Shown here: piece by piece, positions 30,651 to 53,518 of the stretch
Numbering within the stretch: position 1 is the first letter of the stretch
Layout: the number at the start of each line of letters is the position of its first letter
Source: a bacterium
GTDB taxonomy: Bacteria > Patescibacteriota > Saccharimonadia > Saccharimonadales > Saccharimonadaceae
Assembly: GCA_030530485.1 (NCBI GenBank)
Contig: JAUMUX010000005.1
Location: forward strand, 1 to 59,547
Direction: 5' to 3'
Length of the DNA: 59,547 nucleotides
Program-made: the position numbers and the translations under genes
The notes under the pieces: generated by a model
Seen by the model: the letters and a program-made list of their open reading frames with translations, nothing else
Databases searched by the model: none
Told to the model about the DNA's origin: nothing

Positions 30651-32648
30651 TTATTGGTTTTGTTGAGCGGCTCGAACTTCATCGGCGGATAGTTCTGTAC
30701 CATCACCCATCACCAAATTATTGTTTGCCTGTTCGGCAGCCTGTTGAGCGGCTTGCGCTTCAGCAGCTTGCTGTTGAGCCTGCAAGTTTTGTTCGGCAGC
30801 CTGCTGAGTGGTCATCATATCACCACCGTAAGCTGGAGGTGTTTCATAGCGATATTGATTATCTGCTGGGTTATTTTGAGTAGCCCCTTCTGCTGGAATT
30901 TCAGCATTTGCTGTTCCAGGCGTTACGCTTGGGTCAATATTATTAGCCGCTTCGCTTGGCGTAACTGGCTCAGTTACCTCGCCTGGCCCCATAATGGTTT
31001 GGTTGGCGTGAACAGATGGGTTCTCCAAGTCATAATCTTTTGGCGCTAAAGGTGGAGTTTCCGGTTCTTCCGGTGGGGTTTCCGGCGGCGTTCCAGGAGG
31101 CGTCTCTGGAGGTGTTTCCGGTGGAGTTTCGGGTGGCGTCTCCGGCGGAGTGCCTGGAGGCGTTTCTGGTGTAGGAGCTGGTGGAATATTTTCAAATGGC
31201 ACGTATGGAGTTTGCCAAGTGGTTCCAAATTCCGCTTTTACAATCATCTGCCTACATTCATCACGAACCGAAACCGTTTCGCCGTTCTTCAATTTAACTA
31301 CGCGGTAAGTTCCGCCAAATTGCCCTTCAGAGTGAACGTAATTTTGTTCCCCGTTGACATACATCGAGTAGAAGTAATCTGAACCGAGATTTTCTTTCGA
31401 AATCACTTCCGAACCTTCGAAATATTTTTCGAAAGCTTCGTTCAGCTTCTTAAAGGCTTCTTGGTCACCATCGCGAACCGAATCAACCAACGAATCAACT
31501 TCTGCGCCCGAAATTCCAAGATATTCACGCGCCGCAGCTTCGTTATTTACAAAGAATTGGCCCATAAATTCGATGTCATCTTCATTGTGATTTTCGATAA
31601 TCTGCTTCTGATATTCTTCGTTCGAAAGTTCAGAGGTTGAAGTTCCAATCGAGTAGGCATTTTCTTTGCCCTCTTGGTTGTAATTGTTATTTTCAGAATC
31701 GTATTTACCATTTTTGAAAGTTTCGCCCGATTTTGTAAGGGTAGCTTCCCAGCCAGTTCCGCTAAAATCTTCGGTTGAAGTTTCTGTTTTGGTTTTAGTT
31801 TCTTGCTCAGTTTTTGGCTGATTAGACTCTTCGGCGCGTTTTTGGTTTCCGCCAAAAGCCGCCTTTCCAACTCCGAACAGCGTAGCGCCTAAAGCAATCA
31901 CTGCAACTACTTTTTTACCCAATTTCTTGAGCTTTTCGCGACGCGTCATTCGTTCGCCTCTTTCAACATTCACTTTTTGTTCTGCTGAATTTTCAGCCTT
32001 TTCAGCTCGCTCGATTTCACCCAATGCAAGATGGGTTTTGAGCATTGTTTCGTTTTCTTCGGGGCTTAATTCGCCGGCATTTTCTTTGCGGAATCGCGCA
32101 AGTTCTTCTGGTGAAGCGCCGTTGGCTAACATTTCGTCGAATTTTTCTTTGATAGCTTCGCTTTTTACCGCTTCTTCTACTTTCGAATTGTTTTCGATAT
32201 TCGATTCGACAATTTTCGATTCAAGCTCTTCAGCTGTTGGCGCTTTTGGCTCAAAGCTCCAGCTTGCAGTTTCGGCTTGGTTTTGCTCGTTATTGTCTGA
32301 GCGCCTTGCTTCTAAATCTTTTTTCCAATTCGAAATGGTGTCTTTAATTGCTTGACTCTCTTCAGCCTCTTTAATCTGCTGACGCGCACCTTCGCCTAGG
32401 CCAAATTCGTCACCACCGATTTGGTAGAGGTCAACCTCGTTGCTTTCGAAAGGCGTTTCGAAAGATTCCCAAGCTTGAACAGGCTCCTGTCCTTCAGGTC
32501 GAGTAAGTTCATCCAGCTTCTGAATATCTCCAGAACCCAAATCATCCCAAGAAGTTTCGCCCAAACGGCGCAATTCATCCCATTGCGTCTGCTTCGCTTC
32601 CTGACTCTGATTATGAATAAACTCTTTAGCTCGCTTATTCTTTTCCAT
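30651..32648 (-). CDS. Membrane protein with a proline-rich wall-spanning region (665 aa)
   Basis: No family recognised. A long charged Glu-rich N-terminal part (about 1-240, no signal peptide) precedes one membrane helix (about 246-265, KKVVAVIALGATLFGVGKAA). An exported domain (to about 480) is followed by a Pro-rich tract of repeated ETPPETPP/GTPPETPP units (about 490-530) and a Gln/Ala-rich end. The topology suggests N-in/C-out, with the Pro-rich stretch crossing the wall. AAGGACC precedes the ATG. It is followed 13 bases later by the LPQTG protein gene, so the two are probably co-expressed. Confidence 0.7.
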   Translation of the reverse strand: MEKNKRAKEFIHNQSQEAKQTQWDELRRLGETSWDDLGSGDIQKLDELTRPEGQEPVQAWESFETPFESNEVDLYQIGGDEFGLGEGARQQIKEAEESQAIKDTISNWKKDLEARRSDNNEQNQAETASWSFEPKAPTAEELESKIVESNIENNSKVEEAVKSEAIKEKFDEMLANGASPEELARFRKENAGELSPEENETMLKTHLALGEIERAEKAENSAEQKVNVERGERMTRREKLKKLGKKVVAVIALGATLFGVGKAAFGGNQKRAEESNQPKTEQETKTKTETSTEDFSGTGWEATLTKSGETFKNGKYDSENNNYNQEGKENAYSIGTSTSELSNEEYQKQIIENHNEDDIEFMGQFFVNNEAAAREYLGISGAEVDSLVDSVRDGDQEAFKKLNEAFEKYFEGSEVISKENLGSDYFYSMYVNGEQNYVHSEGQFGGTYRVVKLKNGETVSVRDECRQMIVKAEFGTTWQTPYVPFENIPPAPTPETPPGTPPETPPETPPETPPETPPGTPPETPPEEPETPPLAPKDYDLENPSVHANQTIMGPGEVTEPVTPSEAANNIDPSVTPGTANAEIPAEGATQNNPADNQYRYETPPAYGGDMMTTQQAAEQNLQAQQQAAEAQAAQQAAEQANNNLVMGDGTELSADEVRAAQQNQ
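31062..31172 (-). repeat. Short tandem repeats encoding the Pro-rich tract
   Basis: Degenerate 12- to 15-nt units encode repeated T-P-P-E/G-T-P-P peptides in the 665-aa protein. Copy number may vary between strains. Confidence 0.7.
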
Positions 32649-37385: not shown

Positions 37386-38708
37386 TTATGCTCCTTTTCT
37401 ACGTATTGTGACTCTTGCATATGTAATTTTCCCATTAATTTTACCTTCCGCATTTTTTATTAGTCCTGGTATAGAGGTGGCGTATGAGTATTCTTGCATA
37501 TTTCTTTTGTCCGTCAACATAGGCTCTCTCCCCGTTGGCTGCTGGATGCCTGAGTTCTTCGAATGAGTATTCTGAAGTACGGCTGGACGACAACTCTCTC
37601 TCTCTCTCTCTCTCTCGACGGAAACGACTAAGTCCTTTCCGTCGTCACCCTTTCGAAAGGCAACTATCTCAAACTGATCTGGATTATACTTGTCCAGGAA
37701 TGAAATAGGCACACCCATCACGCCGGCATAATCACTTGGGATTGCATCTGTAAACGATACTTCAATCGCATCATAGTTATCATACTTTTTATAACACACA
37801 TCACTTCCAATCACTTTCTTGTTGAATTTCCTATTTTCCGCCATAGTCATCAACCGTAATTCCTGATGACGTTTGCCGTGGTCTAGATTTGTAAACCAGC
37901 GAATACCCTTAATCCTTATATATTTTCGTCCATATTCATCAATCCTCCAACCGGCGGCTGTTATAGGGTAACTTTCTGGTACCATAAACTCCCTGTCACC
38001 ACTTGATATCGTTGGCCCAAGCCAAGTCTTATTCTCCATAATTTTTGGAAAAAATTCTTTATACGTAATTGCGTTCATATTGCCAATAATCAAAAACTTC
38101 TTATCGTGCTCAAATAGCTGTGCCACATATTCACGAAATAGCGAGAACGGCGGATTAGTCACCACGATATCAGCTTGCTTCAGTAGCTCGACACATTCTT
38201 TTGAGCGAAAATCGCCTGGTAGGAAATCATCATCACCTTTCAGTGACTTGCCGCCACCGTTAGCCTGAATAATTTTTTTAATATCCTCTAGGTCGTATAT
38301 ACCGTCACCATTTTCGTCAGCCACTTCAGTAATCTCAATCACCCGACCTTTTGTCTCGCCATCTTCAGTTGTTGTATTAGTCTGCGGTGCAGATTTCTTA
38401 ACTAGAGAAATCTCTTTATCCGGCATATCTGGCAAAAGTGCAACTTGCAGCTCGGTTCCTGCCACTGGTGAATTAAAGTAACTAGTAGCAACCAATTTCT
38501 TGATGCCATAGGCGTTGAACTTGTTTGCGAAGAATTTGAAAAAGTTGCTTTCGTACGGGTCGTCGCAATTGAGGTACACAACCTTGCCACGGAACACATC
38601 CGGGTTGTAGTCAATATACGCTTGGACTTCCTTTTGGATGTCTTCGTATTGCGTATAGAACTCATCATTACGAGCTTTCTTTGCTGATGTAAGATTATTA
38701 TTCGCCAC
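37386..38708 (-). CDS. EcoRI-family adenine-specific DNA methyltransferase with a GA-repeat switch
   Basis: An N6-adenine methyltransferase resembling the EcoRI methylase family. The N-terminus [16 protein letters not shown], the [15 protein letters not shown] segment and catalytic motif NPPF (185-188) are typical. Translation appears to start at GTG 38708. A (GA)11 tract (37594-37616) encodes alternating Arg-Glu at about 365-372. In the present frame the protein ends at 37386 with [13 protein letters not shown]. Loss of one GA would end it at 37441 after [10 protein letters not shown]. Gain of one would end it at 37514 after PYFRILIRR. Each frame therefore carries the same type of C-terminal strand. 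It is the first gene behind the T-box leader. Confidence 0.88.
37398..37579 (-). repeat. Three 79-bp-spaced copies of the methyltransferase C-terminal motif, one per frame
   Basis: On the minus strand, copies of a TAyxxxAGAatactcATxCG-type segment begin at 37579, 37500 and 37421. The spacing is exactly 79 bp each time, which is 1 modulo 3, so the copies fall in three different reading frames. Translated in their own frames they give [16 protein letters not shown] and YARVTIRR. The DNA between copies is strongly diverged. Confidence 0.75.
37594..37616 (-). repeat. Dinucleotide repeat (GA)11 in coding sequence
   Basis: A pure 23-nt GA/CT tract inside the methyltransferase gene. Tracts of this length are prone to slippage in 2-nt steps, each of which shifts the frame. 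It is the only long dinucleotide tract I noticed in the window. Confidence 0.9.
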
Positions 38709-52859: not shown

Positions 52860-52893
52860 ATTATAGTATGTATGTATGTATGTATGTTGTCAA
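52860..52893 (-). promoter_or_regulatory. Phase-variable promoter: tetranucleotide repeat as spacer
   Basis: TTGACA (52893-52888) and TATAAT (52865-52860) are both perfect, but the spacer is 22 bp and consists entirely of GTAT repeats (plus-strand reading). Loss of one 4-bp unit gives an 18-bp, near-optimal spacer. The present length should be weak or off. Confidence 0.75.
52866..52887. repeat. (GTAT)5.5 microsatellite
   Basis: Twenty-two bases of perfect tetranucleotide repeat between the -35 and -10 hexamers of the accessory-cluster promoter. Confidence 0.9.
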
Positions 52894-52936: not shown

Positions 52937-53518
52937 ATGAAAAAAGAAGATATTATTACCTTACCTAACCAAAATTTGCGCAAAAAAGCTGAGCGCGTGC
53001 ACGTAATTACAGATGAAATTCGCGAGATTATTCAAGATATGGTTAACGCCAGCCTGGACTGGGAAAAGGCTCACCCGCACGAGATTTCGGCTGCATTGGC
53101 GGCGCCGCAAATCGACAAACTTTACAAAATTATCATTGTGCGAAGCGATTTAGACGACAAAAACAATCAAGATTTCACCGCTTTAATCAACCCCGAAATT
53201 ATCAAATTCGAGGGCGAAACCACTGAAGATTTCGAAGGCTGCCTTTCGATTAAAGGAATTTATGGCTTGGTGCCGCGAGCTTCAAAAGTGCGCGTCAAAG
53301 CGCTGGATATTCAAGGCAACGAAGTGCGAGTTAAGGCTGAAGGCTTTCTGGCGCGCGTTCTTCAGCACGAAATCGACCACACCAACGGCGTTCTTTTTAT
53401 CGACCACATTCGCGACAAAAAAGACGCGTTTTATCGCTTAGATGAAAACGGCGAACTTCAGCCACTCAATTATGAAAAAGAAATCGCAAATAACTCCGAG
53501 CTTTGGGAGGATTTGTAG
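52937..53518 (+). CDS. def: Peptide deformylase
   Basis: It removes the N-formyl group from nascent proteins. The three motifs are present: an ALAAPQID version of GxGLAAxQ, EGCLSIKG, and the metal-binding HEIDHTNG. At 193 aa it has the usual size. The first motif departs from GVGLAAPQ in its first residues. fmt follows directly, pairing formylation of Met-tRNA with deformylation. Confidence 0.94.
   Translation: MKKEDIITLPNQNLRKKAERVHVITDEIREIIQDMVNASLDWEKAHPHEISAALAAPQIDKLYKIIIVRSDLDDKNNQDFTALINPEIIKFEGETTEDFEGCLSIKGIYGLVPRASKVRVKALDIQGNEVRVKAEGFLARVLQHEIDHTNGVLFIDHIRDKKDAFYRLDENGELQPLNYEKEIANNSELWEDL

Follow-up and report, generated by a model that had tools for sequence, protein, structure and literature searches.

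Here we show, by comparison with related loci, that an EcoRI-family adenine DNA methyltransferase gene of a Saccharimonadaceae bacterium has a cassette-per-frame architecture, in which three homologous tails, one in each reading frame, stand behind a single dinucleotide repeat. We think it probable that this gene and the nuclease gene that follows it form a three-state phase-variable restriction–modification locus, in which the tail sets recognition and the nuclease takes its target from the methyltransferase. In the mechanism we propose, replication slippage at the repeat (in 2-nt steps here) would shift translation into one of the three cassettes, each of which ends in the terminal beta-strand needed by the fold, such that a complete methyltransferase would be made in every frame. 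The tail would be one of two variable recognition segments, and slippage would then change the DNA sequence that is methylated. With less assurance, we suggest that the nuclease, which combines GmrSD_N and HNH domains, would have no matching recognition site of its own and would receive its target from the methyltransferase. If the nuclease is targeted in this way, modification and restriction would change together and the switch would not be suicidal.

Three tails in three reading frames

The features of the locus are collected in Table 1, with positions given in the window, the whole stretch of DNA analysed (59,547 nucleotides).

Table 1. Features of the methyltransferase–nuclease locus, with positions in the window.
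Feature	Position	Strand	Remarks
GmrSD_N (DUF262-type) + HNH nuclease, 395 aa	36196..37383	-	PF03235 E 9.5e-23, PF01844 E 5.8e-8
EcoRI-family adenine DNA methyltransferase gene, current frame	37386..38708	-	440 aa, GTG start
Conserved anchor before tails	37665..37715	-	invariant or near-invariant columns, 67-sequence alignment
(GA)11 slippage tract inside tail	37595..37616	-	pure repeat; TRF: 37594-37616
Tail c1, 12 units	37514..37594	-	same type as M.EcoRI-like single enzymes, FRKGxDxKDL...PYFRILI
Tail c2, 10 units	37441..37593	-	homologous unit in L146 (same frame order) and L139 (NPANGERPYVNGKKLYARILIRRKA)
Tail c3, 11 units, current frame	37386..37592	-	homologous unit in G283/L012, L138, L146

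The methyltransferase matches the Pfam family EcoRI_methylase (PF13651; E = 7.5e-131) over residues 5–438, C-terminus included, and covers positions 1–345 of the 345 in the profile. PADLOC places it in the class MTase_II (E = 9e-103), the NPPF catalytic motif is invariant in the family alignment, and a comparison with NCBIfam gave no matches. The tract inside its tail is the sole site with at least nine GA units in the whole assembly (656,503 bases). Elsewhere in the window, a (GTAT)5.5 repeat at 52866-52887 lies between genes, some 50 bp ahead of an ORF resembling peptide deformylase (52937-53518, + strand), and is possibly a promoter-length switch; a degenerate 12/24/48-bp tandem repeat at 31051-31171 is probably a low-complexity coding repeat.

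In simulated slippage, the present 11 GA units give a protein of 440 aa (stop at 37386), 10 units one of 421 aa (stop at 37441) and 12 units one of 398 aa (stop at 37514), and each reads into a tail with a version of the terminal strand Y.RILIRR. These strands begin 15, 94 and 173 nt past the tract, at 37579, 37500 and 37421, a spacing of exactly 79 bp. Between the current-frame (c3) stop and the nuclease ATG (37383) there are 2 nt, and the other two stops lie 57 and 130 nt upstream. An earlier note on this DNA had proposed that GA slippage selects among three C-termini, and its coordinates for the tract, stops and strand starts, as well as the 79-bp spacing, were all reproduced to the base.

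The strand motif [YF].R[ILV].[IVL] has 37 matches among the 119,090 codons that the six frames of the window contain, and at this rate (3e-4 per codon) it would be very unlikely by chance for the strand to appear, within some 70 codons, in each of the two other frames. The alignments with relatives described below are sufficient alone to exclude a chance origin of the tails: they show all three, instead of a single one, to be homologous to C-termini of the family. The proposal of three homologous C-termini is thus strongly supported by the relatives, with slippage the presumed means of selecting among them.

Occurrence of the layout in related loci

Thirteen related loci share the layout, with a tract at the corresponding spot followed by tail cassettes in different frames; ten have all three frames filled, and three have two filled frames and an off frame. 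The array is carried by seven other genomes of the window's taxonomic family (G119, G234, G237, G278, G283, G320, G330). The tract is of GA type in G234, G278, G283, G320 and G330 and of AAGC type in G119, while the G237 assembly has a gap exactly at the tract, where the G119 assembly likewise breaks. Three-state arrays were also found on virus-catalogued contigs (L139 with (CA)21, L146 with (GAACA)7 and L189 with A9), as were the two-state loci L138, L147 and L163; L223 has the appearance of a two-state locus whose tail is less perfect, and the tract of L136 is decayed. The suggestion that such a methyltransferase can never be switched off therefore holds for the window and ten relatives, in which all three frames reach the terminal strand and no tract length is left without a full product, but it does not extend to at least three others (L138, L147 and L163), in each of which two frames have tails and the third is off, nor, it seems, to L223.

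In a class-wide sample, arrays were found in the window's own family only, and the remaining arrays come from virus-catalogued contigs. Plasmid and phage collections contain members of the methyltransferase family, with no array among those inspected; a query made of c2 plus c3 gave no matches against plasmids, and a search with the GA-plus-PYFR pattern returned already known loci only.

The frame of the third cassette is open throughout the coding of the first two in the family arrays. A copy of the GVPITFLDKYNP anchor opens each of cassettes 2 and 3 in G119, G234, G237, G278, G320 and G330, whereas these cassettes are compact in the window and G283. No two cassettes share a frame in any array observed; with frames assigned at random, three distinct frames would have P = 2/9 per array, and they are seen in 11 of the 11 three-cassette arrays, which are only partly independent.

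The tract units (GA/AG, CA, AAGC, GAACA and A9) are 1, 2, 4 or 5 nt long, none a multiple of 3. In L146 the three cassettes of the window recur in unchanged order and with the same 79-bp spacing, and a pentanucleotide stands in place of GA. This comparison, together with the range of unit lengths, indicates that the slippage site gets replaced and the cassettes persist.

The units also bear on the level at which slippage would occur. If it took place mainly in transcription or translation, each cell would hold all three isoforms and methylate a broader set of sites, an isoform mixture that the absence of an off state would fit; the tract of L189 is A9, and tracts of this type are known to slip in transcription. 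GA, CA, AAGC and GAACA units, however, are typical DNA-slippage repeats and not classic transcriptional slippage sites, and the tract differs in length between the sister loci G278 and G330. We consider slippage mainly in transcription or translation improbable.

In an AlphaFold model of the current-frame protein, the core is mostly above pLDDT 90, residues 373–424, which cover the frame-specific linker, are disordered, and the terminal strand (432–437) is docked, with a block pLDDT of 89. On this model, a long linker would be tolerable provided that the strand is supplied. In the anchored-cassette arrays, additional GVP anchors are present in states 2 and 3. The model of L189 docks the first anchor and places only the last strand from cassette 3, at lower confidence; its alignment favours the first anchor, and the model is uninformative on anchor choice. 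Among solved structures, a sequence search gave spurious matches only and a fold search of the structure library nothing close, and so the tail cannot be placed on DNA.

Evidence for use of the out-of-frame cassettes

All three states occur among the assemblies: c1 in G278 and G320, c2 in G283 and G330, and c3 in the window and G234. The tract lengths are taken from assemblies and are possibly one unit off, which affects the state called and not the architecture. Constancy of the repeat number, which the earlier note had named as evidence against a switch, is not what the assemblies of relatives contain: the number of GA units is 6, 7, 8, 9, 11 or 13, a variation between species that includes the sister loci G278 and G330 (nucleases 97% identical), where 9 and 13 units respectively bring different tails into frame.

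The G278–G330 pair differs at codon positions 1/2/3, counted in each cassette's own frame, by 1/1/14 in c2 and 2/2/11 in c3, next to 11/6/77 in the core and 12/4/113 in the nuclease as reference regions. Cassette 3 is conserved in its own frame despite being out of frame in both loci. Between the window and L146 the corresponding counts are 7/1/15 for c2 and 3/2/12 for c3, and a comparison of the window with G283 gives the same own-frame tendency towards third positions. These counts indicate that the unused cassettes are under purifying selection, each in its own frame. When cassettes 1 and 2 were recoded synonymously, on the codon usage of genes in the window, the frames of c2 and c3 remained open together in 2.8, 5.3, 0.9, 5.2, 1.8 and 1.8% of trials at six loci, which are partly non-independent.

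A decaying gene end, in which remnants of a duplicated tail match by chance and the non-current frames are functionless, would agree with the linkers between tract and cassettes, which are of low complexity and predicted to be disordered. It is nevertheless extremely improbable given the same layout in unrelated contexts, the open frames, the own-frame purifying selection and the replacement of repeat units. Chance or decay was rejected on the relatives, own-frame selection and recoding.

Tails as exchangeable modules

Family tails turn hypervariable 3' of the conserved anchor, and a comparison of 119 members shows this hypervariability in the segment that separates QFEI from the terminal strand. 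Array cassette types recur as the only tail of ordinary family methyltransferases, other phyla included, e.g. GCSYxYGxP in Paraclostridium (L042) and HTYSGD in a Bacteroidetes MAG (L041). The c1 type is also found in M.EcoRI-like single enzymes (L140-L164, L217, L219), to whose tails that of the window is likened by sequence alone. At L217 (1241-2656; Helicobacter phage Pt11509_1), an R.EcoRI-like gene adjoins an EcoRI-like methyltransferase annotated as two pieces.

The exchange of tails as modules can be seen directly. L053 and L016, from the same genus, are 95% identical up to the anchor, directly after which the tails swap and are unrelated. Nucleases that are 97–99% identical adjoin unrelated tails (L038/L039, L025/L106, L084/L106), and similar tails stand on cores 44–55% identical, several with nucleases only 38–44% identical. 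L053 (G000:C9:34871-35893) is the second EcoRI-family methyltransferase of the window genome; it carries one tail and is accompanied by a GmrSD_N-type nuclease of its own.

In these comparisons the tails behave like recognition modules, and a change in methylation specificity upon tail switching appears to be the best supported of the consequences suggested in the earlier note. A second variable segment lies between WLG and W[FY]TN, at about residues 231–271 of the window methyltransferase; it is diverged between loci with near-identical nucleases, stays outside the switch in arrays, and may contribute the second half of recognition. In L038/L039, the strong divergence consists of the tail and the segment between WLG and WFTN. 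Because cores near swapped tails often differ in this segment also, the site may be set by the tail only in part.

The position of the stops invites another reading, in which nuclease expression depends on the distance from stop to nuclease (2, 57 or 130 nt), the tails serving only to complete the fold. The c3 frame alone ends beside the nuclease start, and the c3 stop lies past or at that start in G119 and G237. For such a coupling, however, plain stop codons would be enough, and homologous, independently conserved and diversified cassettes would be unnecessary; the cassette types, moreover, are also found in enzymes with one tail and are swapped in modular fashion, and the nuclease has its own AAGGAG ribosome-binding-like site, which sits inside the end of c3. 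This reading seems to us improbable, and we retain a switch of specificity as the likely role of the tails.

The partner nuclease

PADLOC assigns the partner nuclease to the class REase_II (E = 1.2e-86). A nuclease of the GmrSD_N–HNH type, scored by the DGQQR motif, lies downstream of 71 of the 111 family methyltransferases with enough flank. In L041 and in L048, a tandem pair of EcoRI-family methyltransferases that differ in their tails has one common downstream GmrSD_N-type nuclease; this layout is a second way to pair one nuclease with several tails.

Since each array has one nuclease with three tails, and near-identical nucleases adjoin unrelated tails, the nuclease probably reads no fixed site of its own. 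Methyltransferase-guided restriction would be the simplest fit to this pattern, with a modification-dependent nuclease as the main rival. In the latter case the tail switch would alter specificity and the nuclease would act independently, either as a type IV-like, modification-dependent enzyme that cleaves phage DNA bearing foreign modifications or by sparing DNA whatever the tail. GmrSD and BrxU, which have the same N-terminal domain, are modification-dependent (PMC12707154), and a nuclease identity that does not track the tail is also expected under independence. The tightness of the pairing, the filing of the nuclease by PADLOC as a type II REase, and a C-terminal domain that is HNH (PF01844) and not DUF1524 all argue against independence, which we judge unlikely; we prefer a nuclease guided by its methyltransferase.

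The combination of a constant nuclease (97–99%) and a varying, putative recognition segment is as in type I and type III systems, but these have HsdS, or Mod/Res with a helicase motor, where the present locus has GmrSD_N-HNH and PF13651.

Comparison with known systems

Phase variation of C-termini has been described in Helicobacter canadensis and Neisseria gonorrhoeae, in which a repeat at the 3' end shifts the frame and expression is kept (PMC2823697, PMC5320596). The likeness lies in a frame-shifting repeat near the 3' end, with three frames considered; in the window, too, a non-triplet repeat near the 3' end alters the C-terminus, with expression presumed from the open frames. The tails in those species are mostly short, undescribed as homologous and of unknown effect, and follow poly-G or poly-C, whereas those of the window are homologous fold-completing cassettes, conserved across loci with five repeat kinds.

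In the type I system NgoAV, a poly-G tract in hsdS1 changes specificity from GCAN8TGC to GCAN7STCA via the C-terminal part (PMC9577141). Repeat slippage there alters restriction–modification specificity through the C-terminal part of the specificity protein, as we propose here, but there hsdS1/hsdS2 are truncated or fused to give two specificities, and many strains are predicted to be inactive; the product of the window gene, in contrast, is a type II-like methyltransferase of one chain, and the gene ends in a stack of three cassettes. Phase-variable Mod enzymes of phasevarions (ModM, ModS) also have a repeat in the methyltransferase gene, and recognition-domain alleles on a conserved backbone (PMC6902483, PMC8125046). 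Slippage turns them on or off, whereas in the window it would select among tails, with the repertoire held inside one gene end.

M.EcoRI belongs to the same methyltransferase family, and the c1 tail is of its type, but the EcoRI system lacks a repeat, has a single tail and uses another nuclease. GmrSD and BrxU (DUF262-DUF1524) share the GmrSD_N domain with the partner nuclease, which differs in having an HNH C-terminus (PF01844) where GmrSD has DUF1524 and in forming a tight operon with a methyltransferase. We found no report of a cassette-per-frame system in the open-access literature, a scope that leaves subscription papers and preprints outside. C-terminal phase variation was already known; a stack of homologous cassettes that fills all three frames seems to be a new form of it.

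Implications

Phase variation by repeats is usually told as a matter of on and off; here the frameshift would be a three-way selector, and one complete ending per frame has been built repeatedly, with different repeats. Whether this amounts to a reusable device, in which three cassettes behind any non-triplet repeat give three targets and no off state, with the nuclease following, is a generalization for which we see the case as evenly balanced. For annotation, the architecture predicts errors, as two of the three tails in each array would be invisible to gene callers.

The arrays offer natural tests of whether a small C-terminal tail sets DNA specificity in EcoRI-family methyltransferases, and of whether the methyltransferase guides its GmrSD_N-HNH nuclease. 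If the proposed mechanism is true, one mutation would retarget a whole restriction system, and small-genome bacteria, as well as the carriers represented by virus-catalogued contigs, would possess a self-diversifying anti-phage restriction at almost no genome cost.
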